Shown: positions 20,900 to 40,954 of the stretch, piece by piece
Numbering within the stretch: position 1 is the first letter of the stretch
How the letters are laid out: every line of letters begins with the position of its first letter
DNA from: Clostridia bacterium
GTDB lineage: Bacteria; Bacillota; Clostridia; Oscillospirales; Acutalibacteraceae
Direction of reading: 5' to 3'
Length of the DNA stretch: 42,213 nt
Assembly: GCA_017407755.1 (NCBI GenBank)
Contig: JAFQVY010000011.1
Location: 1-42,213, forward strand
Translations under genes and position numbers: made by a program
The notes under the pieces: model-generated
The model's database searches: none
What the model was told of the DNA's origin: nothing
The model's input: the letters and a program-made list of their open reading frames with translations, nothing else

Positions 20900-20927
20900 A
20901 ATATCACCCTAAGTTAAGTATAAAACA

Positions 20928-21011: not shown

Positions 21012-21040
21012 TTGAAAACGGTTGTTTATCTTGTTAGAAT
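21012..21040 (+). promoter_or_regulatory. Promoter of lipoprotein gene
   Basis: TTGAAA (21012-21017), 17-bp spacer, TAGAAT (21035-21040), 29 bases before the ATG. Confidence 0.6.
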
Positions 21041-21069
21041 AATATCGGAAACTATAGGAGGTACAGAAA

Positions 21070-22437: not shown

Positions 22438-22452
22438 AATTCTACATAATTT

Positions 22453-22480
22453 AAGCTTCCCGCAAAGGGAAGCTTTTTTA
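22453..22480 (+). terminator. Lipoprotein gene terminator
   Basis: AAGCTTCCC (22453-22461) and GGGAAGCTT (22467-22475) form a 9-bp stem with a five-base loop, followed by a T run. Confidence 0.9.
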
Positions 22481-22490
22481 CAAACTTAAC

Positions 22491-22524
22491 TTAGATTTTA
22501 CAAAAAACTGCTTTTAGATTTTAC
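22491..22524 (+). repeat. Direct repeat upstream of phosphate transporter
   Basis: TTAGATTTTAC occurs at 22491-22501 and again at 22514-22524, a 23-bp period. A shorter TTTTACA starts at 22476. The repeats are 63 bases or more ahead of the Na/Pi cotransporter start. They might be a regulator site (PhoB/PhoP boxes are direct repeats), but this is conjecture. Confidence 0.45.
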
Positions 22525-22587
22525 GATAAATTCATAAAGTAATAAATGCACAAAAAAAATAAATAATATATTTTAGGATGTGTATTT

Positions 22588-24351
22588 ATGGATTTATTTG
22601 ACGTATTAACCCTAATCGGCGGTTTGTGTCTGTTCCTGTTTGGTATGAACATAATGGGTGACGGGCTTGAAAAATCTGCAGGAGGCAGCCTTAAAAAGCT
22701 TTTAGGAAAGCTTACCGGCAGTCGCAGTGCAGGCTTTTTAACAGGTATGGGAGTCACGGCTGTTATTCAGTCTTCCTCTGCCACAACAGTTATGGTAGTA
22801 GGTTTTGTAAACTCCGGAATTATGACCCTAAAGCAGGCAATAAACGTAATTATGGGTGCCAATGTGGGTACTACCATTACGTCTTGGATTTTGTCTCTTT
22901 CGGGTATTGAGGGCAATGCCTGGTACATCAAGATTTTAAAGCCCACTTCATTCACTCCAATACTTGCTCTTATCGGCATTGTGCTTTATATGATGTCAAA
23001 GAAAAACAAGCACAAGGATATTGGCGTTATTCTTTTAGGCTTTGCAACATTGATGTTTGGTATGGACACAATGTCTGGTGCTGTTTCGGGACTTAAAAAT
23101 GTTCCTGAATTTCAAAACCTAATGATTATGTTTAACGGCAGTCCCCTTGCTCCCCTGCTTGGTGTTCTTATCGGTGCAATTCTTACCGCAATCATTCAGT
23201 CTTCTTCCGCTTCCGTTGGTATTTTGCAGGCACTTTCTTCTACAGGTGCAGTATCCATTGGTGCATCAATTCCCATTATTATGGGTCAGAACATCGGAAC
23301 CTGTGTAACTGCACTTATCTCTTCAGTAGGCACTAACAGAAACGCTCGACGTGCATCAATTGTTCACCTTTCCTTTAACGTAATAGGTACAACAATTCTT
23401 CTTATCGTATTCTGGTTGGTTTCAGCACTGGTTCAGCCTGCAATTTTAGGCGAATCCGCAAATGAGTTTTCTATAGCTGTTTGCCACACTGCATTTAACG
23501 TAATCTGCACAGCTATTATGCTGCCTATGGCAGGACTCTTAGAAAAAATAACTTATGCTGTTGTTCGTGAGCCTAAGGGTACTGAGGGCAAAGACAAAAA
23601 GGTAGAGCTTGACGAGCGTTTAATGGAAACTCCCGCTATTGCTATTAATCAGTGCCACAAGGTTACTTCTCAGATGGCAGAGGTTTCTACTAATGCACTG
23701 AAGGCCTCCCTTACGCTCCTTGACAATTTCGATGAAGAAACTGCCGAGCAGATAAGGACAGACGAAGCCGCCGCCGACCACTACGAGGATATTTTAGGCT
23801 CGTACCTTGTAAAACTCAGCACCTATCCAATGTCTGACGCTGACTCCAACGAGGCAAACAAGCTTCTGTTTGTTATAGGCGACTTAGAAAGAATTTCTGA
23901 CCACGCCGTGAATATTCTTCGCTCGGCTGACGAAATCAAGACAAAGGATATTAAGCTTACAAGTGCCGCAAAAACAGAAATAAAGGCAATTACAGGTGCA
24001 GTTAACGAAATTATTGACCTTACGCTTAATGCATTTATCAGCACAGACCTTGATGCTGCCGCAAATATCGAGCCTTTGGAAGAGGTTGTTGACACTCTTA
24101 AGGTTCAGCTCAGAGCTAATCATATTCAGAGAATGCAGAAAGGCGAATGCTCTATTGAGGCAGGCTTTGTTTGGGCTGACATCATCACAAATCTTGAGCG
24201 AGTAAGCGACCACTGCTCAAATATTGCAGGCTGTATCATCGAAATGAGCCACGACAGAATGGATATTCACGAATACTATCACCGCACAAAGCACGGTAAT
24301 CCCGTGTTCGAGGCAAAGCACGCTGAGTACGCCGCAAAATATGCTATTTAA
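22588..24351 (+). CDS. Na+/phosphate cotransporter with C-terminal PhoU domain
   Basis: A 587-residue membrane protein of the NptA/YjbB type (Na/Pi cotransporter II family). Two inverted transmembrane repeats carry the signature QSSSATT (61-67) and QSSSASV (204-210). They are followed by more helices to about 310, and then a soluble all-helical PhoU-like domain (about 340-560) with the ERISDHAVNI and ERVSDHCSNIA repeats. It moves phosphate with sodium across the membrane; the PhoU domain probably regulates it. ATG follows AGGATG. Monocistronic with a clear terminator. Confidence 0.93.
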   Translation: MDLFDVLTLIGGLCLFLFGMNIMGDGLEKSAGGSLKKLLGKLTGSRSAGFLTGMGVTAVIQSSSATTVMVVGFVNSGIMTLKQAINVIMGANVGTTITSWILSLSGIEGNAWYIKILKPTSFTPILALIGIVLYMMSKKNKHKDIGVILLGFATLMFGMDTMSGAVSGLKNVPEFQNLMIMFNGSPLAPLLGVLIGAILTAIIQSSSASVGILQALSSTGAVSIGASIPIIMGQNIGTCVTALISSVGTNRNARRASIVHLSFNVIGTTILLIVFWLVSALVQPAILGESANEFSIAVCHTAFNVICTAIMLPMAGLLEKITYAVVREPKGTEGKDKKVELDERLMETPAIAINQCHKVTSQMAEVSTNALKASLTLLDNFDEETAEQIRTDEAAADHYEDILGSYLVKLSTYPMSDADSNEANKLLFVIGDLERISDHAVNILRSADEIKTKDIKLTSAAKTEIKAITGAVNEIIDLTLNAFISTDLDAAANIEPLEEVVDTLKVQLRANHIQRMQKGECSIEAGFVWADIITNLERVSDHCSNIAGCIIEMSHDRMDIHEYYHRTKHGNPVFEAKHAEYAAKYAI

Positions 24352-25394: not shown

Positions 25395-26573
25395 TTAAAG
25401 CTTTCTCCAGACCATTTTGTTGACCACGCCGGTATAGCTTTGGATAAGCTTAACGACCTTGGTAGAAACATTTTCCTCAATATAATCGGGCACAGGAATA
25501 CCGAAGTCGCCCTCGTTATTCATTTCAACTGCGGTCTCAACTGCCTGAGTAAGGCTGTTTTCGTCAATGCCAGCAAGCACAAAGCATGCCTTATCAAGGG
25601 CTTCGGGTCGCTCGGTAGAGGTACGAATGCAAACCGCAGGGAAGGGTCTGCCTTTTGAAGTGAAAAAGCTGCTTTCCTCAGGCAAGGTTCCGCTATCAGA
25701 AATTACCGCAAAGGCATTCATCTGCAAAGCGTTATAATCGTGAAAGCCTAAAGGCTCGTGGCTGATAACACGCTTGTCAAGCTTAAAGCCCGTTGTCTCA
25801 AGCTTTTTCTTGCTTCTGGGGTGGCAAGAATAAAGAATAGGCATATCGTACTTTTCGGCAATTTTATTGATAGCTGTAAAAAGAGAAGTAAAATTCTTCT
25901 GAGTATCAATATTTTCCTCTCTATGCGCCGAAAGAAGAATATACTTACCTTTTTCAAGGTTAAGCTTACTAAGAATATCACTTCTGAGAATGCTTTCATA
26001 ATTCTCGCTGAGCACCTCTGCCATAGGGGAGCCTGTAACATAAACCCTCTCTTTAGGAAGTCCGCACTCGTGAAGATACTTTCTTGCATGCTCTGAGTAT
26101 GCAAGGTTAACATCAGAAATAATATCAACAATTCTACGGTTGGTTTCCTCAGGCAAACACTCATCCTTGCAACGGTTGCCTGCTTCCATGTGAAAAATGG
26201 GAATATGAAGCCTCTTGGCAGAAATTGCAGAGAGACACGAGTTAGTGTCACCCAGAATAAGCAATGCATCGGGCTTAATATCTACCATAAGCTTATAAGA
26301 AGCCGATATAATGTTGCCTACTGTCTCGCCCAAATCCTCGCCAACGGCACTCATATAAACCTCAGGCTCCTGGAGCTTTAAGTCCTTGAAAAATACGCCG
26401 TTAAGATTATAGTCGTAGTTTTGACCTGTATGTGCAAGAATTGTATCAAAATACTTTCTGCACTTTTTAATAACCGCAGAAAGGCGGATAATTTCAGGTC
26501 TTGTGCCGACTATTATAAGTAATTTTAATTTGCCGTTGTCTTTGAACTTAATATTTGAAAAATCTCTGTTCAT
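25395..26573 (-). CDS. fnlC: UDP-N-acetyl-L-fucosamine synthase, C-2 epimerase step (FnlC/WbjD/CapG)
   Basis: A 392-residue enzyme of the UDP-GlcNAc 2-epimerase (WecB) superfamily. It carries VGTRPEIIRLS (22-32), GDTNSCLSAISAKR, HMEAGNRC (128-135) and the DSGTLPEESSF nucleotide loop. The RC(K)D after MEAGN and the position behind fnlA and fnlB mark it as the third enzyme, converting UDP-2-acetamido-2,6-dideoxy-L-talose to UDP-L-FucNAc. GAGGTAG precedes the ATG and only one base separates it from fnlB. Last gene of the operon. Plain WecB (UDP-ManNAc formation) is less likely given the neighbours. Confidence 0.9.
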   Translation of the reverse strand: MNRDFSNIKFKDNGKLKLLIIVGTRPEIIRLSAVIKKCRKYFDTILAHTGQNYDYNLNGVFFKDLKLQEPEVYMSAVGEDLGETVGNIISASYKLMVDIKPDALLILGDTNSCLSAISAKRLHIPIFHMEAGNRCKDECLPEETNRRIVDIISDVNLAYSEHARKYLHECGLPKERVYVTGSPMAEVLSENYESILRSDILSKLNLEKGKYILLSAHREENIDTQKNFTSLFTAINKIAEKYDMPILYSCHPRSKKKLETTGFKLDKRVISHEPLGFHDYNALQMNAFAVISDSGTLPEESSFFTSKGRPFPAVCIRTSTERPEALDKACFVLAGIDENSLTQAVETAVEMNNEGDFGIPVPDYIEENVSTKVVKLIQSYTGVVNKMVWRKL

Positions 26574-26574
26574 A

Positions 26575-27774
26575 TTACACTACCTCAAAAAATGTGTCCG
26601 GTCTGATAGGGTCAAAGCTTTCGTTAGCCCACATAAGGGTTACAAGATTTTCAGTTTCGCTTAAATTAATTATATTGTGGGTATACCCCGGAAGCATATG
26701 TACTGCTTCGATTTTTTCACCGCTGACGTAAAAATCCAGCACCTCGTCAGTACCGATTTTCCGCATCTGAATAAGACCTTCTCCGGAAACTACAATAAAG
26801 AATTCCCACTTACTGTGATGCCAATGCTGTCCCTTTGTAATGCCCGGCTTTGAAATATTTACAGAAAACTGTCCGCATTTCTCGGTTTTCAAAAGCTCGG
26901 TAAAGCTGCCTCTGGCATCAATGTTCATCTTAAGAGGAAAAGAAATCTTTTCCTTTGGTAAATAAGAAAGATATGTAGAGTAGAGCTTTTTGGCAAAACT
27001 GCCACTTGGAATTTCAGGCATAAGAAGGCTTTGGGGTTGAGCCTTAAAGCTATAAAGCAAATCTACAATTTCGCCTAAGGTGACTTTATGAGTAAGGGGT
27101 ACAGCACAAAACCTACCGCTATCTTTAAGCACTGTGTCAACGCCGTCAAATTCACAGTGATGCTCCTTGTTTTCTAAAGCATCAAGCATCTCATTAACAA
27201 TATCATCAATATAAACAAGCTCTAAAAGCGTGGTTCTGTCATTAACCTGTATAGGCAAATCGTTTGCAATATTGTTGCAAAAGGTTGCAACGGCACTGTT
27301 GTAGTTAGGTCTGCACCATTTTCCAAAAACATTGGGAAAGCGATACACCAAAACCTTACTGCCGACTTCTTTGCCGTAATTAAAGAACAGGTCCTCCCCT
27401 GCTTTTTTACTTTTACCGTAATCAGAACCCGAAAATCTGCCAAGCAAGGTTGCCTGAATTGAGCTTGAAAGCATAACAGGGCACTTGTTTGAATGCTTTT
27501 TCAGAGTATCCAGAAGTGTTTGAGCAAAACCGAAATTTCCCTCATAAAACTCTTCACTGCTTAGCGGACGGTTTACTCCTGCAAGGTTAAACACAAAATC
27601 CGCTTTATCACAGTAAGCTTCAAGCTCCTCCGGCGTTGAGTCTACATCATAAAGAAAAATATCCTCAATTATAAGCTCAGGTCGGGTTTTATCTTTTCCG
27701 TCTCTGATATTTTTCAGTGCCTCTGTTAAATTCCTGCCTACAAAGCCCTTGGCACCTGTGATGAGTATATTCAT
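26575..27774 (-). CDS. fnlB: UDP-L-FucNAc pathway reductase with C-terminal cupin (FnlB/WbjC/CapF)
   Basis: A bifunctional epimerase/reductase of 399 residues that turns the 4-keto-L-sugar nucleotide into UDP-2-acetamido-2,6-dideoxy-L-talose. The N-terminal short-chain dehydrogenase domain has NILITGAKGFVGRNL with its glycine-rich NADPH loop and YGKSK (119-123). The C-terminal cupin domain (about 300-399) carries HWHH (317-320), the metal-site histidines typical of CapF. ATG 27774 was chosen because AGGGTGA lies five bases upstream; a GTG at 27783 has no ribosome site. Five bases separate it from fnlA. Confidence 0.92.
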   Translation of the reverse strand: MNILITGAKGFVGRNLTEALKNIRDGKDKTRPELIIEDIFLYDVDSTPEELEAYCDKADFVFNLAGVNRPLSSEEFYEGNFGFAQTLLDTLKKHSNKCPVMLSSSIQATLLGRFSGSDYGKSKKAGEDLFFNYGKEVGSKVLVYRFPNVFGKWCRPNYNSAVATFCNNIANDLPIQVNDRTTLLELVYIDDIVNEMLDALENKEHHCEFDGVDTVLKDSGRFCAVPLTHKVTLGEIVDLLYSFKAQPQSLLMPEIPSGSFAKKLYSTYLSYLPKEKISFPLKMNIDARGSFTELLKTEKCGQFSVNISKPGITKGQHWHHSKWEFFIVVSGEGLIQMRKIGTDEVLDFYVSGEKIEAVHMLPGYTHNIINLSETENLVTLMWANESFDPIRPDTFFEVV

Positions 27775-27779
27775 AAAAC

Positions 27780-28823
27780 TCACCCTTTCATAGCTTCAAG
27801 CTCTTCTTGAATATATTTAAGCTCAAGGAGCTTTTCCTTTACTCCCTCAACATCTAAAAGGTTCGTGTTATTGGAATTAAACTCAGAAAGGTGAACGCGC
27901 TCCTTATTTCCTGAGGTGAAGAATTTGTCGTAATTAAGGTCGCGTTTGTCGCAGGGAACACGGTAAAAATCACCCATATCCTCTGCATTGACACACTCTT
28001 CGTTAGTCAGAAGAGTTTCGTACATTTTCTCGCCATGGCGGATTCCTATATTTATAATCTCTGTGTCAGGTCCGAACAATTCTGTTACAGCCTTTGCAAG
28101 GACTTCAATAGTGCAAGCGGGAGCTTTCTGAACAAGAATGTCACCGGACTGGCCGTTTTCAAAAGCGAAAAGCACCAAATCAACAGCCTCTTCAAGAGAC
28201 ATAATAAAACGAGTCATATTAGGCTCGGTAATTGTAATGGGTTTTCCGGCTTTAATCTGCTCAATCCAAAGGGGAATTACAGAACCACGTGAGCACATAA
28301 CATTGCCGTAACGAGTACAGCAAATCATAGTTTTTTCAGACGAAACTGTTCTTGATTTTGCCACAACCACCTTTTCCATCATTGCCTTGGAGGTACCCAT
28401 TGCATTTACAGGATAGGCAGCTTTGTCAGTAGAAAGGCAAATAACCTTGCTAACCCCACATTCAATAGCAGCAGTAAGCACGTTATCGGTGCCCAAAACA
28501 TTGGTTTTTACCGCTTCAATAGGGAAAAACTCACAGGAAGGCACCTGCTTAAGCGCTGCCGCATGGAAAATATAATCCACACCGTACATTGCATTTTTAA
28601 CGGATGCAAGGTCTCTTACGTCACCGATAAAAAACTTGATTTTATCAGCCTTTTGGGGCATTTTAGCCTGAAACTCGTGGCGCATATCGTCCTGCTTTTT
28701 CTCGTCTCTGGAAAAAACACGGATTTCCTTAATATCTGTGTCTAAAAAGCGGTTCAACACCGCATTACCGAAGGAACCGGTTCCACCGGTAATAAGTAAA
28801 GTTTTATTTTTAAATAGTGACAA
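27780..28823 (-). CDS. fnlA: UDP-GlcNAc 4,6-dehydratase / 5-epimerase (FnlA/WbjB/CapE)
   Basis: First enzyme of UDP-L-FucNAc synthesis, acting on UDP-GlcNAc with NADP. The nucleotide loop TGGTGSFG is at 12-19, catalytic STDKA at 131-135, and MGTSK (142-146) replaces the usual YxxxK, as in CapE/FlaA1-type enzymes. The NVMCSRGSVIPLW segment contacts substrate in this family. The start is taken as TTG 28823, because GGAGGAAG sits right before it and the protein then begins SLFKNKTLLITGG like its relatives; a longer frame to 28850 would read through the ribosome site. The 347 residues agree with the family. Confidence 0.92.
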   Translation of the reverse strand: MSLFKNKTLLITGGTGSFGNAVLNRFLDTDIKEIRVFSRDEKKQDDMRHEFQAKMPQKADKIKFFIGDVRDLASVKNAMYGVDYIFHAAALKQVPSCEFFPIEAVKTNVLGTDNVLTAAIECGVSKVICLSTDKAAYPVNAMGTSKAMMEKVVVAKSRTVSSEKTMICCTRYGNVMCSRGSVIPLWIEQIKAGKPITITEPNMTRFIMSLEEAVDLVLFAFENGQSGDILVQKAPACTIEVLAKAVTELFGPDTEIINIGIRHGEKMYETLLTNEECVNAEDMGDFYRVPCDKRDLNYDKFFTSGNKERVHLSEFNSNNTNLLDVEGVKEKLLELKYIQEELEAMKG

Positions 28824-28852
28824 TTTTACTTCCTCCACAAGTGCAAACAAAA

Positions 28853-30040
28853 TTATTTTACAGCTTTATGTAAATAACGTTTAATTTTTCTTAACGCTTT
28901 ACCTATAAAGCTTCTTTGTATACGTTTTGAAATAATATCTTTACGTGTAGGCAAAAGCAACTCTCTTACTAACTCCTCGAAATCTTCCGACTCAAACCTT
29001 TTAAAGAAATTTGTTCTATTTCTGTGTTCTGTAGATTTCGTAGAATAAGCCGGATTTTGCACCAGTGCATCATTGGCATCAACTTCTCGATAAATAAGAT
29101 TCATCTTAATTTTATCAAATACACTCTTGCCTTTATCGGTTTGAATCAGAACTAACGACGTACCCCTATCGTTTGTAAAGTCCGGGCACACTTGTTCACA
29201 TCCCCAAAAGTCACCTAAGGTAATATCGCTCGCTCTGTTTTGACCTTTAAACTCACAATTATAACATGATGACCTTGTACACAAACCATTAATAAAAGCT
29301 TTCATATAATAATTATTATCTGCTTTTTTAATAATTTCAAACTCATCTTTCGTTTTGACGCTTAAACAATATCTTTGCCAGCTATCTCTTTTGTCTCTGA
29401 AGTTTACACTTGCTACTTCGCCCAAAGAATTTGTAATTTGGTTTAAATACTCACTCCACACCCTTGGAGAAGGTACGCTATGGCAAATAATATCAACACA
29501 CAGCAATTTTTCGTATGGCTTTTTTAAAAAGCTTTTCAATGCTGCTACCTGACAAGGTGTACCCGAAAACAGCACCTCTTTATTTAAAAGTAAATCTTCT
29601 TTAACTTGAGCATACGAGTAACCAACATTACTTTGTGAATATTTCGAGCCTTGTAGCTTCTGTAACTCGCTTAAAGATGCAATTCTTTTATGCACAACAG
29701 AAAAATCTTCTGACAAAGCAGCACCGTATACTATACCGCCGCGTTTGATTATGCTTTCGGCTAGTGTTATAAAAACACCACCTGACGAACTTTCATTTAA
29801 TTTATCTAAATCTTTATTATATGCTGCAATAGCTATGGGAGATATAAACGTATTTATAGATTTAAATTCTAAAACAGCACATACAGATTGACAAAGCCCA
29901 CAGTTAATACAGCTGTCTTCATCTACTACGGGATATAAAAAGCCCTCGTAATCCGATTTCATTTGAATACATTTCTTAGGGCATATATTGAAACATGCAC
30001 CGCAACCTGTACATATAGATTTCTCAGCTAACTTCATCAT
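28853..30040 (-). CDS. Coenzyme F420 hydrogenase beta-subunit-like iron-sulfur protein
   Basis: A 395-residue redox protein. The N-terminus is a double [4Fe-4S] ferredoxin domain (C10, C13, C16, C20 and C44, C47, C50, C54), followed by an FrhB-like domain. That domain carries FSGTPCQVAALKSFL, ICHSVPSPRVWSEYL, a CYNCEFKG cysteine pair and DITLGDFWG. FrhB-type domains bind a flavin and pass electrons between ferredoxin-type clusters and a substrate. Members in polysaccharide clusters of anaerobes have no established reaction. It closely parallels residues 387-766 of the fused protein at 35484-37784. The stretch is markedly AT-rich compared with the fnl genes beside it. Either of two consecutive ATG codons may be the start. 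Confidence 0.85.
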   Translation of the reverse strand: MMKLAEKSICTGCGACFNICPKKCIQMKSDYEGFLYPVVDEDSCINCGLCQSVCAVLEFKSINTFISPIAIAAYNKDLDKLNESSSGGVFITLAESIIKRGGIVYGAALSEDFSVVHKRIASLSELQKLQGSKYSQSNVGYSYAQVKEDLLLNKEVLFSGTPCQVAALKSFLKKPYEKLLCVDIICHSVPSPRVWSEYLNQITNSLGEVASVNFRDKRDSWQRYCLSVKTKDEFEIIKKADNNYYMKAFINGLCTRSSCYNCEFKGQNRASDITLGDFWGCEQVCPDFTNDRGTSLVLIQTDKGKSVFDKIKMNLIYREVDANDALVQNPAYSTKSTEHRNRTNFFKRFESEDFEELVRELLLPTRKDIISKRIQRSFIGKALRKIKRYLHKAVK

Positions 30041-30068: not shown

Positions 30069-31613
30069 TTATCTGTTTTTATGGAATTTACTAACTACTT
30101 TCTTCAAAGGTTTTCTAAAAACATCTTTTTCATAACTATTAAAAGCAAGAAAATACATCAGCACAGCATAAATAACAGTAAAAATAATTACTCCTGCAAA
30201 GAATACAAACCAATTATCAACAACAACAAATCTAAATAAAACCAAGCCTGCCACAGTCATCAACAATGGAACAAGTGCCATTTTTAATATATTCTTCCAG
30301 AACAAAGGAATGTTAATACCTGTTATTTTGTAATAATAAATATTCATTATAATTCCTTGTCCTATTATATAAGAGATACAGGAACAAAGTGCAGCACCTA
30401 TAACCCCCATGCTGGGAACCAACAAATATGTAGAAATAACGTTTGCAATTGCAACGATTAAATATACGATGGAGCGGAATCTATGTTTATTTTGAGCCGT
30501 AACAATAGCTAAACCTGTATTTTGTATCAATGGTACACATAACGGAAACATTGTAAGCAAAGCAATCCAATATGCTTCGATATAATCTTCTCCGGCCCAC
30601 AATGAGATAAAATCCTGTCCAAACACAGTAAAACCGGAAGCTACCAATGCTACTATAATAAATTGTAGCCTACCTACTCGGACAAACAGTTCTGTCAATT
30701 GGATCTTCGGAGTGTTTTTTACTACCATACCCGTTACTTTTGGTGTTAAAACACCTGAAATAGAAGTGGACAAATTAATAACAATATTGTTAAAGGTTGC
30801 ACCAACATTATAAACCGCTACTGCAACACTTCCTGCCAACATACCTAAAATCACCTTATCAGTTGCCCAGAAAAGCATATCCACTATAGAACCAATAAAT
30901 ACAAATGCCGAAAAGCCCACCATCTCTTTTATTAGTGCTTTAGGCAAAACAGCAAAGCGGGGTCTTATATTCAACTTTTTGTAGCAATATACGATATTTA
31001 ACGGCAACATAGCAAATTGCATAATCGTAGCAGCTACTGTCATACCCACCGATCCATAACCTAAATAAAGGGCTACTAAATTAGCCAAAGGAGCAGCTAC
31101 AGTGGCGAGCATATCTACACATTTTCTGAAAATATACTTTTCATGTGCAGTTACCATAGAAGAAAATACACTTAAAGGAAATGAAAGAGCTGAATTAAAT
31201 GTCATTAATAAAACCAACACTTTCATTTTTTCAAGCTCGTTAACGGTCAAACCTCTATTAAAGATTGGCTCTATATTAAAGGCTATTACTGTACCGCAAA
31301 CTAAAACTAAAATTGCTAATGCACTGTACAAAAGCAAGAAAAAACCATAAGCTTTTTCTTCTGATTTCTTATCTCCTTCTGCACGATATTTTGCGATATA
31401 TCTGATAATTGTGCTTCCAAAGCCAAAACTCAACAGCGAAAGATACGCCACTGCCGAATGTGCTAAGGAATAAAGACCATACTCTGCTTGACCAAGCATT
31501 CTCAGCATTACTGGCGTATATAAGAAGGGAATAATCATTCCCAACACCAAATTAATATATGACAATATTACTCCAGAACGAAGTTGATTTTTTTGCAACG
31601 TAATCTCCTCCAT
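30069..31613 (-). CDS. wzx: Polysaccharide flippase (Wzx-like, MOP superfamily)
   Basis: A 514-residue membrane protein with about 12-14 hydrophobic helices, beginning LRSGVILSYINLVLGMIIPFLYTP, a typical start of oligosaccharide flippases. It should move the lipid-linked repeat unit across the cytoplasmic membrane. Its ATG shares one base with the stop of the pyruvyltransferase gene upstream (TAATG), so translation is coupled. No Wzy polymerase accompanies it in this operon. Confidence 0.9.
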   Translation of the reverse strand: MEEITLQKNQLRSGVILSYINLVLGMIIPFLYTPVMLRMLGQAEYGLYSLAHSAVAYLSLLSFGFGSTIIRYIAKYRAEGDKKSEEKAYGFFLLLYSALAILVLVCGTVIAFNIEPIFNRGLTVNELEKMKVLVLLMTFNSALSFPLSVFSSMVTAHEKYIFRKCVDMLATVAAPLANLVALYLGYGSVGMTVAATIMQFAMLPLNIVYCYKKLNIRPRFAVLPKALIKEMVGFSAFVFIGSIVDMLFWATDKVILGMLAGSVAVAVYNVGATFNNIVINLSTSISGVLTPKVTGMVVKNTPKIQLTELFVRVGRLQFIIVALVASGFTVFGQDFISLWAGEDYIEAYWIALLTMFPLCVPLIQNTGLAIVTAQNKHRFRSIVYLIVAIANVISTYLLVPSMGVIGAALCSCISYIIGQGIIMNIYYYKITGINIPLFWKNILKMALVPLLMTVAGLVLFRFVVVDNWFVFFAGVIIFTVIYAVLMYFLAFNSYEKDVFRKPLKKVVSKFHKNR

Positions 31614-32776
31614 TAAATGAGTTTATTAACCGCTTCTTTTCCTAAATATGCTTTATTAATATATTCCGGCATAATTTTCTCTAAATGCTCGCGAATTTTG
31701 CTTTCATTCTTTAAAAGCCATTCAAAGCCATTGGCTAACTCATCGGTATGGGTTAATTGCTGTACCGGCAAAACGTAGTTTTCTGACGTACCGAACAAAT
31801 CTTTAGCAATTCCTCGAGACTTAACCGAATAGCCTAAAACAAGTGTAGGAACACAAGTTGAATAAGCTGCAATAGTTGCATGAGTTCTTGCTCCAATAAA
31901 GAAACGGCAACGGGATATGTAACCTTTAAGTTCCATACAGTTATGGTCTTCAATCATAATTACCCTCTTGGTATTCTTAAACTCTTGATAGAGTTGATTA
32001 AGAGGAATTCTGTCGTCGTTACTTTCCCATACAACATGAGGAATTAATGCAATATTACAGGAAGTTTGACAAATTATATATTCTATTAATTTCCTATATG
32101 CATCAAGCACCATTTTACTGTTTTTGTTGCTTCGCATTATAAGAGGACTGACATTTATCCCGACCATGTTGCCTTCAATCCAACCTTCAGGCAAAGGCAG
32201 GTCCACTTTGTCCAATACAAATGCAGGATCGGAAACTAAAATTGTGTTAGGATTAACCTTTTTCAAGGCATTATAGGAAATGGTTTCTCTTGCAGTAATT
32301 AAATCATAAGAACCAATATCTTTCGCAATCTCGTTGTTTTTTAACAAATCAGGTTCTACACTGCAGCCCCAAAGTACTGTTTTTGCACCTTTTTTATGAA
32401 ACAAATGATTTTGTGCCGCTAAAAGCTCTGTTCCTCGATAGCAATAATTATCTCCGCCAATAGAAAAAGCAACATCACCCTTATTAACTGTGTCAAACAT
32501 TTTTTTCTTGCGATAATATATATTTTTATTTATAGATCCAGTAAGTTTGGTCTGAATTCTTGACACGATATCTTTATATGAAAATTTCTTAACAGAAATA
32601 TTTTCATCAGGTACAATAGTATCAACCACATCATCTGTACCATAATAAACATCCTGCTCAGTATTTATAGAATATAATATTATGTCGTTACCAAGAATTT
32701 TGGAAGATGCTCTTACAATCGCTTCACAGCCATGATTACCACTGCCGGCATGAGCATAAAATATCTTCTTTTTCAT
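31613..32776 (-). CDS. Polysaccharide pyruvyltransferase family protein
   Basis: A 387-residue CsaB/WcaK-type protein, expected to transfer a pyruvate group from phosphoenolpyruvate to a sugar of the glycan. It begins KKKIFYAHAGSGNHGCEAIVRAS, a nucleotide-fold-like first strand with the GNHG glycine turn. It has SIGGDNYCY in the middle and the conserved RTHATIAAY segment with its histidine near the C-terminus. The start overlaps the region right behind the acyltransferase stop, with AAGGTAG as ribosome site. This is the second pyruvyltransferase of the operon; the other is fused at 35484-37784. Confidence 0.87.
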   Translation of the reverse strand: MKKKIFYAHAGSGNHGCEAIVRASSKILGNDIILYSINTEQDVYYGTDDVVDTIVPDENISVKKFSYKDIVSRIQTKLTGSINKNIYYRKKKMFDTVNKGDVAFSIGGDNYCYRGTELLAAQNHLFHKKGAKTVLWGCSVEPDLLKNNEIAKDIGSYDLITARETISYNALKKVNPNTILVSDPAFVLDKVDLPLPEGWIEGNMVGINVSPLIMRSNKNSKMVLDAYRKLIEYIICQTSCNIALIPHVVWESNDDRIPLNQLYQEFKNTKRVIMIEDHNCMELKGYISRCRFFIGARTHATIAAYSTCVPTLVLGYSVKSRGIAKDLFGTSENYVLPVQQLTHTDELANGFEWLLKNESKIREHLEKIMPEYINKAYLGKEAVNKLI

Positions 32777-33316
32777 TTATGGTCTACCTTCATTTCTCAT
32801 TCTGATTATTTTTGCCGGAGACCCACCAACTATAGCATAATCAGGAATATCTTTTGTTACTATCGAACCCGCACCAATAATAACATGGTTACCAATTTTC
32901 ACACCTGGTAACATAATTACACGCGCACCAATCCACACATCATCACCAATATGTATAGGAGTTTCTTCTTCAAAACCTTGCTCACTCATGGGTATATCTA
33001 AACGGTCGTGTGCATGGCTATAAGAATACAAAATACATTCCGGCCCCATCATGACATCATTCCCAATATATGTCCTACCACTTATATAGCAATTCACTCC
33101 TATTCCACTATTATTTCCTATATGAATAGTAGGATTAAATTTTGCTCCTCGCTCAATATTAATATTCGAACCACATTTTTCTACAAATTTGCTCGTCATC
33201 CAACCACGAATCTTCTGTGCACGCGGCGACTGTACTGAAGATGGTAATTTGATACCCACCTTAAAATATAACCTTCTAAAAAAACTTCTTTTAACTTTTG
33301 TAAAAATTTTTTTCAT
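32777..33316 (-). CDS. Hexapeptide-repeat acyltransferase
   Basis: A 179-residue left-handed beta-helix acyltransferase of the NodL/maltose acetyltransferase type. Repeats of the [LIV]-G-x-x form run from about residue 65 to 165 ([33 protein letters not shown]), with the catalytic histidine probably in YSHAHD. It ends in [12 protein letters not shown]. It should O- or N-acetylate a sugar of the polysaccharide, with acetyl-CoA as likely donor. GAGGAG precedes the ATG. The N-terminal 40 basic residues are longer than in simple acetyltransferases. Confidence 0.9.
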
Positions 33317-33334: not shown

Positions 33335-34315
33335 TTATTTTTTTAAACGACTATAAATCATCAAGGGAATGGGGGTTTTTAACCGATATAACATAGAATA
33401 TATTTTATTTCTTGATATTAATGCATTAGTAACAACTTTTCTAAATTCAGTATTTGTCATTATACTCTTTAATACTGAATATTTTTTACTAAACGGATAT
33501 GATGATTTCAAAATAGCCTTTATAGATTTTTCGAATAAGATAAAAAACTCTCTATAGTAACATTCAGGTAAGGATTGTGGACTTACTATATTAACTGCTA
33601 CTCTATTAACCTCTTTAAATAAATCGATGTCGTGATAAATTTTTTTGCAGTCGACAATAGTTGATAAATTATTTCCTATTGGCCATTCATAGTGATATAA
33701 ACATTTATCTAGAAAATAAATATCCCCATCAATTGAGCTAAGATAACAAATATTAAATAAATAGTCTTCACCATTACTAAATTTTTTATTAAAACGTAAA
33801 TCATTTGCCTCAATAATATGACGGCTATATATTTTGCTCCAAGGAGATTTAAATCCATATAAAGTTAAACTTGTAAATTCATTTCTACTATATTTTTGGC
33901 AATTATCATTAGCTTTAGTTTCATAGGGTAAATAATTCTGTTGCCCTTCTGTAAAAAAGCCACACATAACTAAACCATTTGGTTTATATGCATCGAAAAG
34001 CTCTTTACACCAATCCTCTGCTGCCCAATCATCACTATCACAAAACATAACAAATTCGCCAGTTGCTATATCAAGTCCTGCATTTCTTGCTGAAGATACA
34101 CCGCCGTTTGGCTTATCTATAACAACTATTCTCGAATCCTGCGCTTCAAACTTTTTACATAAATCCAACGAATTATCTTTAGAACCATCATTAACTAAAA
34201 TGATTTCTATATTCTCGTAAGTTTGATTTATAAGCGAAGAAACACAGCGTTCTAAAGTTTTTTCAGCATTATATATCGGTACAACAATGCTGATTTTACC
34301 TGTTTTTTCACACAT
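33335..34315 (-). CDS. Glycosyltransferase family 2
   Basis: A 326-residue GT-A transferase. It has ISIVVPIYNAEKTLERC at the start, VNDGSKDNS, the SSARNAG segment and the metal motif DSDD in FCDSDDW. The C-terminal third is basic. ATG 34315 shares one base with the stop of the upstream GT4 gene (TGATG), so the two are coupled; a TTG one codon earlier is unlikely. It is very AT-rich (14 G+C in the 60 bases 33481-33540), suggesting acquisition from elsewhere. Sugar specificity cannot be read. Confidence 0.9.
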   Translation of the reverse strand: MCEKTGKISIVVPIYNAEKTLERCVSSLINQTYENIEIILVNDGSKDNSLDLCKKFEAQDSRIVVIDKPNGGVSSARNAGLDIATGEFVMFCDSDDWAAEDWCKELFDAYKPNGLVMCGFFTEGQQNYLPYETKANDNCQKYSRNEFTSLTLYGFKSPWSKIYSRHIIEANDLRFNKKFSNGEDYLFNICYLSSIDGDIYFLDKCLYHYEWPIGNNLSTIVDCKKIYHDIDLFKEVNRVAVNIVSPQSLPECYYREFFILFEKSIKAILKSSYPFSKKYSVLKSIMTNTEFRKVVTNALISRNKIYSMLYRLKTPIPLMIYSRLKK

Positions 34316-35475
34316 CAAGAAAACACCGTTCTTTCATATTCCTCTAAAGAATTAGCAAAATATTTTCTTCCGTTTTCCAATTCTGAAATAAAGCTGTTTT
34401 TCTTTTCCATGTTGTCCAATAAAGAACTAACAGCATTTGCGATTTCATCTGCATCAATATCCACAATCAAACCATTAACTCCATTTTCTATCTGGTCTCT
34501 CATGCCGCCTACATCAGTTGTTACAATAGGCTTGCACAAAACTTTCGCCTCTGTAATTGTTGTAGAATATGCTTCATAATAAGATGTTTGAACATAAATA
34601 TCGCAACAGTTGATAAACGGATAGGGATTATTCTGATTTCCTTCTAAAAAGAAGCAGTCCTGAACCTCAAACTCTTCAATCATTTGTCTTATACGGCTAG
34701 TCTGATTTCCATCTCCTATCCAGTGCCAACGCAACTTATACCCCTTAGAGCAAAGTTTGCTGCAAGCTCTAACCGCTAAATCAGCACCTTTTTCAGAGGT
34801 CAATCTTCCGACCGTGACGATGTCAATAGCAGTATCATCAAAACCCGCAGGAGTAAACTCTTTAGATTTAATAAGAATATTTTCAACATCACAAATGTTG
34901 CGCAAAATTATAAGTTTATTATTAGAAAAACTAAACTTACTTTCAAGCACCTTCGCACAATCACTTGAAACTGCAACAACATAATTGAATTTTGAAAAAT
35001 AGTTTTTATCCCTATTATACTCTTTTCCTGTTTTCTCGTAGGCACCATTATGATACCAAAGCACCTTTCGGTCAGCTGTTACTTTATCTATAACATATCG
35101 CGGAGAATAATCATGATGCGAGTAAGCAATTGCTACATCATATTTACCCGGCAATGGTTTAAAAGTTTTCCAAGGACTTATACCTAATTTAACACACAGC
35201 CTGTATATACAATATGATATAAATTTTGTAAAATTACGAAAAACACCGCCGTGATTTTGTATATCGTTAAACGTATTTTCAGTGTTCATCACGTACTTAA
35301 AATCGTCCAAAAAGTTCACTTTGCGTTTTATTTGGCTCTTAAGTATCGAATACTGAGAATTCATAAGCAAACAATCTACGGAATAATTATCTTCCGGTAA
35401 ACTGTTTATTAAATTCAGCAGGCACTTTTCAATGCCGCCTATACCTAATCCGTAACAAACAAATAATAATTTCAT
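34315..35475 (-). CDS. Glycosyltransferase family 4
   Basis: A 386-residue GT-B transferase. The N-terminal domain begins LLFVCYGLGIGGIEKCLLNL, the usual glycine-rich acceptor-side start. The C-terminal domain has VGRLTSEKGADLAVRAC and YVQTSYYEAYSTTITEAKVLCKP, the EX7E-type donor-binding motif. It probably adds a hexose or N-acetylhexosamine from a nucleotide sugar with retention. AAGGAAAG precedes the ATG, eight bases after the fused gene upstream. Confidence 0.9.
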   Translation of the reverse strand: MKLLFVCYGLGIGGIEKCLLNLINSLPEDNYSVDCLLMNSQYSILKSQIKRKVNFLDDFKYVMNTENTFNDIQNHGGVFRNFTKFISYCIYRLCVKLGISPWKTFKPLPGKYDVAIAYSHHDYSPRYVIDKVTADRKVLWYHNGAYEKTGKEYNRDKNYFSKFNYVVAVSSDCAKVLESKFSFSNNKLIILRNICDVENILIKSKEFTPAGFDDTAIDIVTVGRLTSEKGADLAVRACSKLCSKGYKLRWHWIGDGNQTSRIRQMIEEFEVQDCFFLEGNQNNPYPFINCCDIYVQTSYYEAYSTTITEAKVLCKPIVTTDVGGMRDQIENGVNGLIVDIDADEIANAVSSLLDNMEKKNSFISELENGRKYFANSLEEYERTVFS

Positions 35476-35483: not shown

Positions 35484-37784
35484 TTATGGATGCCGTCTGA
35501 TTCCAAGATGATACGTCACTGCTTTTAACGACTTCTTAAACTTTCCTTTAATCGACGCCGGCATCGTATACTTTTTTATTAACTTTTTGAACGGGAGCAT
35601 TGAATAATCTTCCCAGAATTTCTCTCTTCTTGAAGAAGGATAACTAGGCTTATACAAATTAGGCTGCATACAATTTTCAACTTTACAATCAAAGCTATCA
35701 AAAAAGTTTGATGCCTGATTAAAAACCGACTCACCTTTCGATGTATTTACCAAAACTAAAGATACGCCATGGTTATCGTTAAAATTCAGATCATACTTTT
35801 CTATACCCCAGAAATCTGCCATTGTTAAGTCACCCGGTCTGTATACGTTTGTAAACTGGCAATTGTAACAAGAAGGTCTAAACATTATACGCTGACAAAA
35901 CAAGTCCGTATAGTCACAGGCAGCTATTTTTTTGTTCTTTTTTTGCAAAACAAAAGTTTCGTAGTGAGACTCCCAACCAAAATCCTTATCTCTAAAGTTT
36001 GCTTCGATTATCTTATCATTATATTTTTCTTCTATAAAGCTTAAGTAATCTTTCCAAACCATAGGACTCGGAACTCCGTGACAAATCATATCACAACAAA
36101 CAAGTCTATCAGCACGAATTCTATTTTCTGCTAAGTAAGATTTCAGACCAGAAACCTGACATGGTGTACCAGAAAACAACACTTCCATACCATTTACTAA
36201 ATCTTTTTCTACTAACGGAAAAATATCGGTAGTGTCACTTTGAACATACTTAGCTTTCTTCATTAAATCACGTTCAGCTACGGTAGTAGCTCTTATATGC
36301 TTTACAGAAAAGTCATCCTGCATAGCAGCACCATACACTACTCCACCATTTTGCAAAACTACATCTGAAAACCCGACAAACGCTGCACCAGACCTGCTGC
36401 TCTCTCGTATTTGCAAATTTTTGTGCTTAATTCCGTATGCCTTTGGCAGATTTGCACTTCTTTTAGTTTTTTTAAATCCGCATGCGTTATCACATTTTCC
36501 ACAATTCACACATTTAGAAGTGTCCACTATGGGGTACCAAAAACCTTCTTTATCCCGTTTCATAGCAATAGCACCCATAGGGCAAACCACAGCACAAGAA
36601 GCACAACCGCAGCATAGATTTTTTTCCCGCATTCCTACATTAATATGTTTGGGTGATTCTTTTGCAAAAAATTGTTCCTTGGGCACATCGCCGTCCGAAA
36701 AAGCTGTCTTTAAAAAACTCATAGATTTCGCTCTTAAACTTGCTAAAATGGTATTTACCTTCTTATAATCAATATTATTACTAAGGTCTATATCGTCAAC
36801 CATTTTTACCTTACGGTTTAACAAGCCTGTTTGAGTTAATAATCCATCAATCCTACTCATCACTCCACCATTTTCATAAACATAAAACTGTTTTTCAAAA
36901 ATCAAAGATAAAGCAATCCCGTGGAATGAGTTGGTAACTAAAAACTCGGCACCTTTAAGTAAAGACAAAAACTTTTCTGGTCCACAGTTACCTTTTCTAC
37001 CTCTAAATTTACCTATTCGTGGAACATTCATAATATAAACGTCACAACCGAACCGCCTTTTAAGGCTTTTTATGGATATATCTGAATCTGGATTAGAATC
37101 AATTTGATGTACTAATATGTATGGTTTACGTGGACTTGCCGGAATCGGAATAGCTGACATTATTTCTTTTCCCGCAAGCAATGTAGGATCCAAAACAACT
37201 GGATATTTAACACCTGTAATTTCAGCTACATACTCAGATAATTTTTCTTCTCTAATTCCTATATATGTATCACTATCAAGAATCTTTTTCTTAAGCTGTA
37301 ACTCCATATCCAAAGGAAAAGGAACATCTTGAGAACTAGCAGCATATATTATTTTTTTAGCTTCGGTATCTATATCTAAAAAAAATACGGGATCAAATTT
37401 ATTACCTGTGATTTTATAGTTCCATATTTGATCGCTGCCTGAAATCAACACATCATAACTTAAACTCTTAATCTCTTCGGAACACATACATGTTTCGGAT
37501 TCATTTAGGTACTTTTGTCTAAAAGAAATAAACTCTTTTTCGCGCTTTCGTTTTCCAAAAAATCCCAATAATTCTACTCCGAGTTTTATGACAGCTTTTT
37601 TCTTATTAGATGAAGATAAAAAGTGTTTAAATGGAGTTACTCTGTCTTTAGTTCCGTTAAAATTATAATCTATAATATGAGTTTCTAACCCTTCCGCATC
37701 ACAAACAGCTTTTAGTGCATAGGCTTGTAATACAGCTCCGTAATTAAGGGCTCTATGAAATGTGAGAATTCCTGCTTTTTTCAT
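35484..37784 (-). CDS. Fusion: polysaccharide pyruvyltransferase + ferredoxin/F420-hydrogenase beta-like reductase
   Basis: A 766-residue two-part protein. Residues 1-365 are a pyruvyltransferase-family domain: GILTFHRALNYGAVLQAYAL at the start, LISGSDQIWN (113-122), a VLDPTLL strand (197-203) and the conserved NSFHG (285-289). Residues 387-435 are a double [4Fe-4S] ferredoxin (C391, C394, C397, C401; C425, C428, C431, C435). Residues 440-766 are the FrhB-like domain with SGTPCQ (538-543), CHGVPSP (568-574), CYNCQF (639-644) and ADFWG (656-660). The two halves match the two stand-alone genes of this operon. GGAGGTAATAATT precedes the ATG. The fusion implies that transfer of a three-carbon group and a redox step act together; the product is unknown. 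Confidence 0.88.
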   Translation of the reverse strand: MKKAGILTFHRALNYGAVLQAYALKAVCDAEGLETHIIDYNFNGTKDRVTPFKHFLSSSNKKKAVIKLGVELLGFFGKRKREKEFISFRQKYLNESETCMCSEEIKSLSYDVLISGSDQIWNYKITGNKFDPVFFLDIDTEAKKIIYAASSQDVPFPLDMELQLKKKILDSDTYIGIREEKLSEYVAEITGVKYPVVLDPTLLAGKEIMSAIPIPASPRKPYILVHQIDSNPDSDISIKSLKRRFGCDVYIMNVPRIGKFRGRKGNCGPEKFLSLLKGAEFLVTNSFHGIALSLIFEKQFYVYENGGVMSRIDGLLTQTGLLNRKVKMVDDIDLSNNIDYKKVNTILASLRAKSMSFLKTAFSDGDVPKEQFFAKESPKHINVGMREKNLCCGCASCAVVCPMGAIAMKRDKEGFWYPIVDTSKCVNCGKCDNACGFKKTKRSANLPKAYGIKHKNLQIRESSRSGAAFVGFSDVVLQNGGVVYGAAMQDDFSVKHIRATTVAERDLMKKAKYVQSDTTDIFPLVEKDLVNGMEVLFSGTPCQVSGLKSYLAENRIRADRLVCCDMICHGVPSPMVWKDYLSFIEEKYNDKIIEANFRDKDFGWESHYETFVLQKKNKKIAACDYTDLFCQRIMFRPSCYNCQFTNVYRPGDLTMADFWGIEKYDLNFNDNHGVSLVLVNTSKGESVFNQASNFFDSFDCKVENCMQPNLYKPSYPSSRREKFWEDYSMLPFKKLIKKYTMPASIKGKFKKSLKAVTYHLGIRRHP

Positions 37785-37792: not shown

Positions 37793-38758
37793 TTACCTCC
37801 GAATTAGTTTCTTTACTTTACGGTAAACACTATACACTAATTTATAAAACCACGAAAAATGGTATATTAAAGTTACTTTTACTTTTAGTTTATTATTCAC
37901 TTTATAACCACACTTCAATACGTCATTAATCTCCGATTTAATTATTTTACAATCATCAGCCTTATTATTATCTAAACAAATAGCATAATATGTAATAAGC
38001 GAATCTAGATATCTGTTTGCAGCAAGGTTCTTTAATGATTCTACAGTTCGTGTTTTCTCATAAATATATTTATTAACCTTATAATTATCTAATCTCTTTT
38101 TTTCATAAGAAGTAACAAAACATGCAGACACACCAAATCTTGCTACGTAATTATACTTTGCATAATCCGCAAACACTATTATATTTGAATTGCTAATCGC
38201 CTCGAAGTTAAATAATATATCCTCATTAATTTTTATATCTTCTCTAAAACTCAATTTATCAACTATAGCTTTTTTGTAAAGTTTATTCCACAATCCTCCA
38301 TAAAGCATATAACCGCTTATCAAAGATTTTAGTGCTTGCTCCTGATTTTGTACATACACCTTCTTGGTATCATTTACAAGTCTTATTTCATCTCTAACAA
38401 TATGTTTATATCCACAGCAAGCAACATCCGCATTGTTTTCATTCAAAAACTTAACCAACAGCTCATACATATCTAAGTCTAAAGTATCATCACTGTCAAT
38501 AAATGAAAATAGCTCTCCGCTCGCAAGCTTTAATCCTTGGTTTCGTGCCGCGGATACGCCCTTGTTCTCTTGATGAAATACAATAATACGCCTATCCTTT
38601 TCAGCATAGCGATTACATATATCTAAGCTACCATCGGAAGAACCATCGTCCACCAAGATTATTTCAAGATTATTATAAGTTTGCTCAATTATGCTATCTA
38701 TGCATGCCGGTAAATACGGTTCGCAATTATATATAGGAACTATAACAGAAATTTTCAT
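37793..38758 (-). CDS. Glycosyltransferase family 2
   Basis: A 321-residue GT-A enzyme: ISVIVPIYNCEPYLPACIDS, VDDGSSDGS, SAARNQG and the metal motif DSDD in FSFIDSDDTLDLDMYE. The C-terminal part is basic and hydrophobic and probably membrane-associated. Its first bases overlap the stop of the upstream gene by four (ATGA). The very AT-rich coding sequence matches the neighbouring genes but not the operon ends. Confidence 0.9.
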   Translation of the reverse strand: MKISVIVPIYNCEPYLPACIDSIIEQTYNNLEIILVDDGSSDGSLDICNRYAEKDRRIIVFHQENKGVSAARNQGLKLASGELFSFIDSDDTLDLDMYELLVKFLNENNADVACCGYKHIVRDEIRLVNDTKKVYVQNQEQALKSLISGYMLYGGLWNKLYKKAIVDKLSFREDIKINEDILFNFEAISNSNIIVFADYAKYNYVARFGVSACFVTSYEKKRLDNYKVNKYIYEKTRTVESLKNLAANRYLDSLITYYAICLDNNKADDCKIIKSEINDVLKCGYKVNNKLKVKVTLIYHFSWFYKLVYSVYRKVKKLIRR

Positions 38759-39804: not shown

Positions 39805-40914
39805 TTATAAGACACTCAGCATATCTTCAACAGCTTTAACTGTATTTTCGGTACTAAAATACTTTCCTCTTTCCTTTGCACGCTTTGCATAATCTGCAAG
39901 CATATCGTCAGTTGTAAGAATATTCTTTATACCCTCATAAAGTGCTTCTTCGCTGTTTTCGGTTACGATACCGTATTCATTGTTTTCGCCTAACATTTCT
40001 TTCATGCCCGATACTTCAACGGTAACAACAGGTGTACCAACAATAAGCGCCTCAGTAGCAGCCGTTGAGAAACCCTCGGCAAAAGAAGCACAAACGAACA
40101 AGTCGCTTTTTGATACATACTTATAGGGATTGGTGTCGTATCCCAATAAGGTAACATAATCAGTCATATTGTCTTTTTGAATGATATTCGCCAGTTCTTC
40201 CTGCATGGGGCCGATTCCAAGAATATACAAATGAACAGGATACTTCTCGTCGTTAAGCTTTTTGAGCACTTTTAACAGTCTCACATATCCTTTTGACTGC
40301 TTAAGCGTACCGACCGCAATCAGCTTAAGCTTATTATCGTCCACAAACTTAACGTCAGTATCCTCAGCACTTTTTCTGATAAAATCAGACTCAACAGTGT
40401 TATATAAAACGCCAATTGGCTTCTTAAAATTCAAAATCGTGCTAAAATCATTTTTAACAAATTCAGAAACACATACAGTTCTATCAAATCTGTTGTAGCA
40501 TCTGATAGCCTCATTTTCATTTCTGAAAGATGAAGCCAAAGTTTTCATACGATGTTGCTCAACGTGTATCCACGAAACAAGCTTAGTGTCTTTATCAGGG
40601 CAGCCGCTGATAATTCGCGCAGAAGGACCTTCCAGATAAGAAACCTCTATATCGTAATGCTCTTTGATACAGAACTTATGCAAAAATTTCGGGGTAGAAA
40701 GCTTCATTATTTTGCTGTTGGCAGGAAAAGCCTTTTTAAAAACAGAGCGATATTTAATATGAGGCTTTAAAAATTGCTCATTCACTCCGCCGCCAAAAAT
40801 TGATATTACAGAAATATCAAATTTTGTGCTATCCATATTATTAACAAGATTTACAAGAACCTTTTCGGCTCCGCCCTGACCTAAGTCATGAATAAAAAAT
40901 AATACTTTTTTCAT
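39805..40914 (-). CDS. Glycosyltransferase family 4
   Basis: First gene of the polysaccharide operon, a 369-residue GT-B enzyme. It begins KKVLFFIHDLGQGGAEKVLVNLV. The C-terminal half carries AVGTLKQSKGYVRLLK and FVCASFAEGFSTAATEALIVGTP, a GT4 donor-site motif. The base composition is like the housekeeping genes (32 G+C in the 60 bases 40021-40080), unlike the AT-rich genes behind it. ATG 40914 was chosen; an in-frame GTG at 40929 is possible, and neither has a strong ribosome site. The promoter lies 40 bases upstream. Confidence 0.9.
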   Translation of the reverse strand: MKKVLFFIHDLGQGGAEKVLVNLVNNMDSTKFDISVISIFGGGVNEQFLKPHIKYRSVFKKAFPANSKIMKLSTPKFLHKFCIKEHYDIEVSYLEGPSARIISGCPDKDTKLVSWIHVEQHRMKTLASSFRNENEAIRCYNRFDRTVCVSEFVKNDFSTILNFKKPIGVLYNTVESDFIRKSAEDTDVKFVDDNKLKLIAVGTLKQSKGYVRLLKVLKKLNDEKYPVHLYILGIGPMQEELANIIQKDNMTDYVTLLGYDTNPYKYVSKSDLFVCASFAEGFSTAATEALIVGTPVVTVEVSGMKEMLGENNEYGIVTENSEEALYEGIKNILTTDDMLADYAKRAKERGKYFSTENTVKAVEDMLSVL

Positions 40915-40954
40915 AATACACGTACCCACAATATAAACCTACTTATTCTTATAT

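Follow-up and report, generated by a model that had tools for sequence, protein, structure and literature searches.

Among the closest described parallels to the gene considered here is the two-step route to UDP-N-acetylmuramic acid, in which MurA transfers an enolpyruvyl group from phosphoenolpyruvate (PEP) and MurB reduces the sugar-bound enolpyruvyl ether, UDP-N-acetylglucosamine (UDP-GlcNAc) enolpyruvate, rather than free PEP, to a lactyl ether. The gene lies on the minus strand of a 42,213-nucleotide contig of a Clostridia bacterium of the Acutalibacteraceae (GenBank JAFQVY010000011.1, positions 1 to 42,213; this whole stretch is referred to as the window) and encodes a fusion of a member of the Pfam family PF04230 with a ferredoxin/FrhB-like reductase. 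Comparison of its relatives indicates that the product is likely a two-step enzyme that attaches lactic acid, as an ether (1-carboxyethyl group), to a surface-polysaccharide sugar. As with MurA and MurB, enolpyruvyl transfer from PEP would be followed by flavin-dependent reduction to the lactyl ether, and MurB homologues fill the reductase place in some relatives of the fusion; however, the transferase is a PF04230 protein, the reductase is FrhB-like and the acceptor is presumably a polysaccharide sugar.

Each half also has described relatives of its own. CsaB, WcaK and Pvg1 are ketal-forming enzymes that share PF04230 and a presumed use of PEP with the N-terminal half, whereas the fusion has an S-F-H motif in place of R-x-H, a linked reductase and a position in the family tree apart from the WcaK side. 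The F420-linked subunits FrhB, FdhB and FpoF, together with the solved structures 7np8 and 8rja_E, have the same ferredoxin and FrhB make-up as the C-terminal half, but the fusion has no neighbouring hydrogenase genes, its partner is a sugar enzyme and its genome yields no CofD match. In the Escherichia coli O124/O164 cluster, an FrhB gene likewise adjoins a PF04230 gene among polysaccharide genes, although the two are separate and this FrhB retains only part of the ferredoxin cysteines.

Surface polysaccharides reported to bear lactyl ethers include those of Shigella and Proteus (PMC10609480), Klebsiella (PMC6856556) and Salinivibrio (PMC8466920). Among the open-access matches listed, the portions of text available contain no account of how such ethers are made, muramic acid apart, and no statement that PF04230 together with a reductase yields them; subscription reviews (Liu and co-workers) lie outside this scope and may propose it for single clusters. 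Only one of these listed papers joins pyruvyl transferase, F420 hydrogenase, polysaccharide and carboxyethyl, and it does so, in the portions available, as gene counts and a reference title (PMC4616057). The reaction type is already known from MurA/MurB, and it seems to be the enzyme families and their modular exchange that are new.

Domain composition of the fusion protein

The gene and its two halves are as follows.

35484..37784, minus strand: fusion protein of 766 residues, comprising PF04230 (about 1-365), 2x[4Fe-4S] ferredoxin (387-440) and FrhB-like reductase (to 766)
36675..37784, minus strand: N-terminal half, residues 1-370, a putative PEP-dependent enolpyruvyl transferase of the S-F-H type
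35484..36647, minus strand: C-terminal half, residues 380-766, a putative ferredoxin/flavin reductase of the enolpyruvyl ether

The sequence-only reading of this DNA described a single 766-residue chain containing both halves, and this is borne out: on the minus strand the frame is without stops in the genome search, GGAGGT sits just 5' of the start codon, and Pfam reports PS_pyruv_trans (PF04230) at residues 14-305 (95.5 bits, cut-off 25.3), Fer4_7 at 391-437 (28.0 bits, cut-off 27) and FrhB_FdhB_C (PF04432) at 533-692 (78.7 bits, cut-off 23.3). The key residues named for both halves are likewise in place, with NSFHG at 285, SGTPCQ at 538, CYNCQF at 639 and the cluster cysteines at 391/394/397/401 and 425/428/431/435. 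PF04432 above its cut-off and the eight ferredoxin cysteines place the C-terminal half in the FrhB/FdhB family; PF04422 is not reported for the fusion in the Pfam scan and is present in the 28853-30040 protein of the same window. Additionally, the C-terminal half matches solved F420-dependent sulfite reductases (PDB 7np8) and 8rja_E by sequence profile. At E 0.01, the PF04230 profile has no match among solved structures, and the 11 Pfam matches of the fusion include no EPSP synthase/MurA domain.

The same reading called the N-terminal half CsaB-like, which does not hold. The CsaB model (TIGR03609, cut-off 213.1) is missing among the best 25 of the fusion's 28 NCBIfam matches, and this assignment was rejected. 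The CsaB/WcaK ketal type was rejected as well: the fusion reads NSFHG, whereas WcaK reads GTRLHS and the CsaB loci GMRLHA and similar, and the half is placed outside the WcaK side of the PF04230 tree. The R-x-H motif of CsaB and WcaK is presumed to have a PEP-binding role.

The source genome (1.56 Mb, 93.7% complete) contains four PF04230 and three PF04432 matches. Its ordinary murB is located elsewhere, and the fusion would therefore not be needed as a peptidoglycan enzyme. Because this genome, at that completeness, gives no CofD match and a CofG score of 26.1 bits, below the cut-off of 213.35, F420 is probably not the electron donor, and ferredoxin with flavin is the likely electron route. 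On contig C10 of the same genome, another R-x-H PF04230 gene is found with an FrhB gene about 2 kb off. Genome G002, from the same genus as the window, encodes a PF04230 protein with an identical counterpart in Ruminococcus bromii YE282, and on this evidence the window probably belongs to the R. bromii group.

Association of PF04230 with three flavin reductases

One PF04230 clade occurs beside, or fused to, three unrelated flavin reductases, namely FrhB, nitroreductase and MurB. For FrhB, a species-genome collection was scanned with the FrhB half, and the best 80 of 572 confirmed loci were read with the matched FrhB gene as reference. PF04230 is fused in 14, adjacent in 35, within 3 kb in 14 and at 3-10 kb in 2; it is absent in 3 (L059, L082, L102), 11 loci reach a contig end and 1 was not called. 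Fused, adjacent or within 3 kb, the two families are paired at 63 of the 68 assessable loci, so that the fusion, which might have been an isolated accident as far as the sequence-only reading went, is not one. Adjacency is found in 34 of the 58 non-fused loci, against 9.1 (standard deviation 2.65) expected if the genes of these loci were ordered at random, and a chance fusion was rejected on this count.

The fusion protein matches 52 of the 59 relatives' genomes (source genome included), many of these matches covering ferredoxin stretches only, and further fused copies occur in G004, G029, G032 and G055. FrhB-PF04230 fusions occupy six separate places of a quick tree, besides the nitroreductase and MurB fusions. 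The fused gene recurs in Oscillibacter/Dysosmobacter and relatives (L078, L093, L095-L097, L099, L101, L103, L108, L109, L111, L113, L119), which hints at a conserved polymer there. Two fused proteins, L090:5119-7242 and L094:11645-13723, have a weak FrhB-half score and another FrhB gene nearby, and the L090 fusion has lost several cluster cysteines. Two PF04230/FrhB sets are carried by plasmid pNP95 of Pseudobutyrivibrio xylanivorans (L006:11998-14244 and 20288-23914), where the annotation splits one PF04230 into two overlapping frames; Butyrivibrio is known for polymers that contain carboxyethyl galactose.

In the reverse direction, a PF04230 gene of this clade (E 1e-20) is present in 52 of 291 class-level genomes. 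Forty loci from the top of this list, taken with flanks of several kb, contain 51 clade genes (47 with the S-F-H motif), to which FrhB is fused in 3 cases, adjacent in 20, within 3.5 kb in 13 and farther in 4, with none in 11.

Nitroreductase and MurB are found in the same position. The PF04230 protein of a Lactiplantibacillus plantarum plasmid, 34.6% identical to the N-terminal half, has no FrhB beside it and is accompanied by a flippase and then a nitroreductase; in L. plantarum LZ227, FrhB occupies this slot, L. plantarum TMW 1.1623 has nitroreductase, and in Levilactobacillus brevis 100D8 the slot holds MurB (TIGR00179, 162.3 against a cut-off of 144.5). Cetobacterium somerae and Novosphingobium P6W have a MurB-like gene immediately after PF04230 (130.5 and 124.2 bits, below the TIGR00179 cut-off). 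Fusions are known here as well: PF04230 is joined to nitroreductase in Paracoccus alcaliphilus and Gemmobacter fulvus (nitroreductase fusions of 849 and 871 residues) and to FAD_binding_4 plus MurB_C in Paracoccus aestuarii (845 residues). The fusions L124:5974-8589 and L146:2492-5029 have in common an extra stretch between PF04230 and the reductase (about 390-528 of L124) that has no Pfam match.

A plasmid search matched 80 records, of which 23 rows (H58-H80) were examined, 54 Sinorhizobium records and the unlisted rest being excluded; the one Sinorhizobium record that was read (L125) contains FrhB. The 23 rows comprise 7 with FrhB, 7 with nitroreductase, 4 with a MurB-like gene and 5 with none. 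H58 and H59, both nitroreductase rows, come from two strains with one and the same cluster, and H77 was scored by annotation only. H75 was placed with the nitroreductase rows, even though the gene next to it on the upstream side is a truncated FrhB.

The reductase may also differ where PF04230 is nearly the same. In the E. coli plasmids L122 and L128, PF04230 is 99.4% identical over 337 residues (99.1% in DNA, with 84% for the flippase DNA), and the gene between flippase and PF04230 is nitroreductase in the former and FrhB in the latter; in each plasmid, a remnant of the other's reductase precedes its other PF04230 gene. Between the Gemmobacter and P. aestuarii fusions, PF04230 identity is 88% over 324 residues (68% over the whole match of 500), and their reductase halves, nitroreductase and MurB, give no match to each other. 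On an 84-row quick tree, FrhB, nitroreductase and MurB require 10 state changes. This tree was derived from an 85-row set by dropping nine near-copies (one identical) and the long-branch row L100_6 and adding nine rows; both PF04230 trees are quick trees with many open forks. A common substrate of the reductases would be the simplest account of the swaps. The small, insertion-sequence-rich E. coli plasmids L122, L128 and L129 carry cassettes of flippase, reductase, PF04230 and glycosyltransferase in which the reductase varies by cassette, and a wzc remnant is seen in the L128 and L129 cassettes.

With respect to the motif, the 85-row set contains 69 rows with S-F-H, 5 with R-x-H (WcaK, the window gene 31613-32776, L050, L081 and L118) and 11 with neither. 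Loci of the ketal type were examined as controls. WcaK lies among wzxC, wcaL and wcaM in the colanic acid cluster, where no reductase is annotated from wzxC to galF. CsaB scores above its cut-off in 155 of the 291 class-level genomes, and the best 30 CsaB loci contain 0 FrhB, 0 nitroreductase and 0 MurB in flanks of 1.5 kb a side (shorter in 2), as judged with control profiles built in this analysis from few sequences. ExoV was not used as a ketal reference, the unannotated pSymB stretch giving no PF04230-like match.

Gene clusters and lactyl-ether polysaccharides

The O-lactyl group is listed for only three Klebsiella K antigens, K22, K37 (glucuronic acid) and K66 (glucose) (PMC6856556, Table 1). 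Pyruvyltransferase genes are reported in 4 of 46 non-pyruvylated Klebsiella types, namely K8, K22, K37 and K66 (PMC4616057), and K8 is given with pyruvyl galactose in PMC6856556. The chance of all three O-lactyl types falling among these four is 2.6e-4. The clusters surveyed in PMC4616057 include, by its count, 2 nitroreductases and 1 coenzyme F420 hydrogenase; because the K22 and K37 loci, accessions AB819893 and AB819894, are reported to be indistinguishable except for one acetyltransferase frame (PMC3857182), these counts would fit K22, K37 and K66.

In E. coli, the O124/O164-family cluster has the order wzx-FrhB-PF04230, followed by glycosyltransferases. It is found in 5 of 5426 E. coli genomes, and FrhB is annotated in 5 of 5; PF04230 is one feature in 2 of the 5 and two pieces in 3 (L130, H119, H120), and strains of the latter kind are predicted to lack the lactyl group. 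Before this cluster was found, we had taken O124, O164 and O58 to be lactyl-ether (glucolactilic acid) serogroups. The FrhB and PF04230 pair is also present in E. coli O69 (2 of 3 matched genomes read) and in the galF-gnd cluster of IAI1, and the Klebsiella aerogenes pair, searched as DNA, has no match in E. coli. Alignment reveals partial ferredoxin cysteines in FrhB of Enterobacteriaceae and Sinorhizobium (L131:9768-11150, L132:8203-9558, L134:6850-8214, L005:1849-3279, L125:9052-10476). With regard to structures, 4-O-[(R)-1-carboxyethyl]-D-glucose is reported from Shigella dysenteriae (PMC10609480), the O124 antigen is reported to have an identical counterpart among the Shigella O antigens (PMC5723341), and the O164 cluster is given as 98-99.9% identical to that of O124 (PMC4732683).

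In the window, the genes around the fusion form a run on the minus strand that encodes glycosyltransferases, an acyltransferase, a flippase and sugar epimerases, assigned by Pfam as follows.

25395..28850, minus strand: three genes with UDP-GlcNAc 2-epimerase, NAD epimerase plus Polysacc_synt_C, and Polysacc_synt_2 domains, predicted to supply nucleotide sugars
28853..30040, minus strand: second FrhB-like reductase, stand-alone, 395 residues, directly after the flippase
30069..31613, minus strand: flippase (Polysacc_synt), between the second PF04230 and second FrhB genes
31613..32776, minus strand: second PF04230 protein, stand-alone, of the R-x-H type (GARTHA) by motif and on the WcaK side by tree
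32777..33316, minus strand: hexapeptide-repeat acyltransferase (Hexapep)
33335..34318, minus strand: glycosyltransferase family 2
34315..35475, minus strand: glycosyltransferase group 1, directly downstream of the fusion gene
37793..38758, minus strand: glycosyltransferase family 2, directly upstream of the fusion gene
39805..40929, minus strand: glycosyltransferase group 1

The 31613-32776 gene is the more CsaB-like one of the cluster, with 54.7 bits for TIGR03609, far below the cut-off of 213.1.

Proposed chemistry and alternative explanations

Enolpyruvyl transfer followed by reduction to a lactyl ether, which the sequence-only reading offered as speculation, gains substantial comparative support from the pairing, the three reductases, the swaps and the coincidence with lactyl polysaccharides. 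In the first step, the PF04230 half would take enolpyruvyl from PEP, attach it to a single hydroxyl and release the enolpyruvyl ether rather than close a second bond to a pyruvate ketal. In the second step, the ferredoxin/FrhB half would pass electrons via two [4Fe-4S] clusters to flavin, which would reduce the vinyl group to the lactyl ether, as MurB does on UDP-GlcNAc-enolpyruvate; within the fusion, the labile enolpyruvyl ether may be passed directly to the reductase. It is likely that PF04230 contains a large clade of enolpyruvyl transferases which, with three interchangeable reductases, form a general modular lactyl-ether pathway, often fused, in Bacillota, Bacteroidota, Pseudomonadota, Fusobacteriota and others, and in which the reductase may set the R or S configuration. 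The title cited for K22 gives an S ether, and the glucose ether from S. dysenteriae is of the R form.

Several observations weigh against a lactyl-ether function. In the reverse survey, none of the three reductases occurs in the stretch read around 11 of the 51 clade genes, and for 4 others the nearest lies beyond 3.5 kb; this PF04230 type is therefore not always accompanied by a reductase and may also make ketals. Likewise, 5 of the 23 plasmid rows (H63, H64, H66, H70, H74) are without a reductase by annotation or profile, and 11 of the 85 tree rows have neither S-F-H nor R-x-H. FrhB is also found next to R-x-H PF04230 genes in L050, L081 and L118 and near one in the window (pair 28853/31613), so that it also accompanies the other PF04230 type. 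Of the MurB-type proteins, that of L. brevis alone exceeds a MurB cut-off, and it lies below that of NF010480 (205.2 against 259); additionally, the presumably catalytic serine of MurB reads threonine in this protein. O58, assumed to be a lactyl serogroup, was not met among the clusters found, O164 presumably has no lactyl group, and the Shigella type that matches O124 is presumably S. dysenteriae 3. The Klebsiella coincidence draws on published tables and counts rather than on K-locus sequences, and the main text of PMC4616057, in the portions available, names no types for its F420-hydrogenase and nitroreductase genes.

The Pfam domains of 19 neighbours at the ten reductase-free loci are those of glycosyltransferases, flippase, polymerases and assorted others, including a short-chain dehydrogenase in L209. 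In L238:3197-5230 (677 residues), PF04230 is fused behind a family-2 glycosyltransferase, without a reductase in the stretch read. The S-F-H clade alone was rejected as a mark of lactyl synthesis, given the 11 reductase-free genes and the glycosyltransferase partner in L238.

Formation of an ordinary pyruvate ketal by the PF04230 half, with the FrhB half reducing another substrate, for example a keto sugar of the same repeat unit, is an alternative that we consider unlikely. The naming of PF04230 after ketal-forming enzymes, the reductase-free 11 of 51 and the further sugar-modifying genes of the window cluster would all fit, but it is then difficult to explain why a single PF04230 clade is accompanied by three flavin reductases of unrelated families, MurB's among them, and is found fused to each, and why such a reductase is found in 0 of the best 30 CsaB loci within flanks of 1.5 kb a side. 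K22, K37 and K66, which are reported with a pyruvyltransferase gene and an O-lactyl group and with no ketal, also argue for the lactyl ether.

It is improbable to a greater degree that the reductase acts first, with a lactyl donor (or a reduced PEP analogue) transferred whole by PF04230, or that a finished ketal is opened reductively. Since the final lactyl ether would be the same, the match of clusters to structures does not separate this route from transfer followed by reduction; MurB, however, acts on sugar-bound enolpyruvyl and not on free PEP, and no activated-lactyl gene and no kinase gene was noticed to recur across the loci read, no dedicated search having been made. Mere crowding of mobile polysaccharide genes is scarcely credible: the loci are recombination-rich and the E. 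coli plasmids carry many insertion elements, but adjacency is 34 against 9.1 expected within the same loci, and fusions with FrhB arise at six separate quick-tree places, in addition to those with nitroreductase and MurB.

If two-step synthesis of a lactyl ether is correct, the gene pair would predict this ether from sequence, and the default label "polysaccharide pyruvyl transferase" would need correcting for these proteins. It would also account for the presence, in capsule and O-antigen clusters, of genes labelled "coenzyme F420 hydrogenase", of nitroreductase genes and of additional MurB genes, and the MurA/MurB reaction would then have been solved a second time, separately in evolution.

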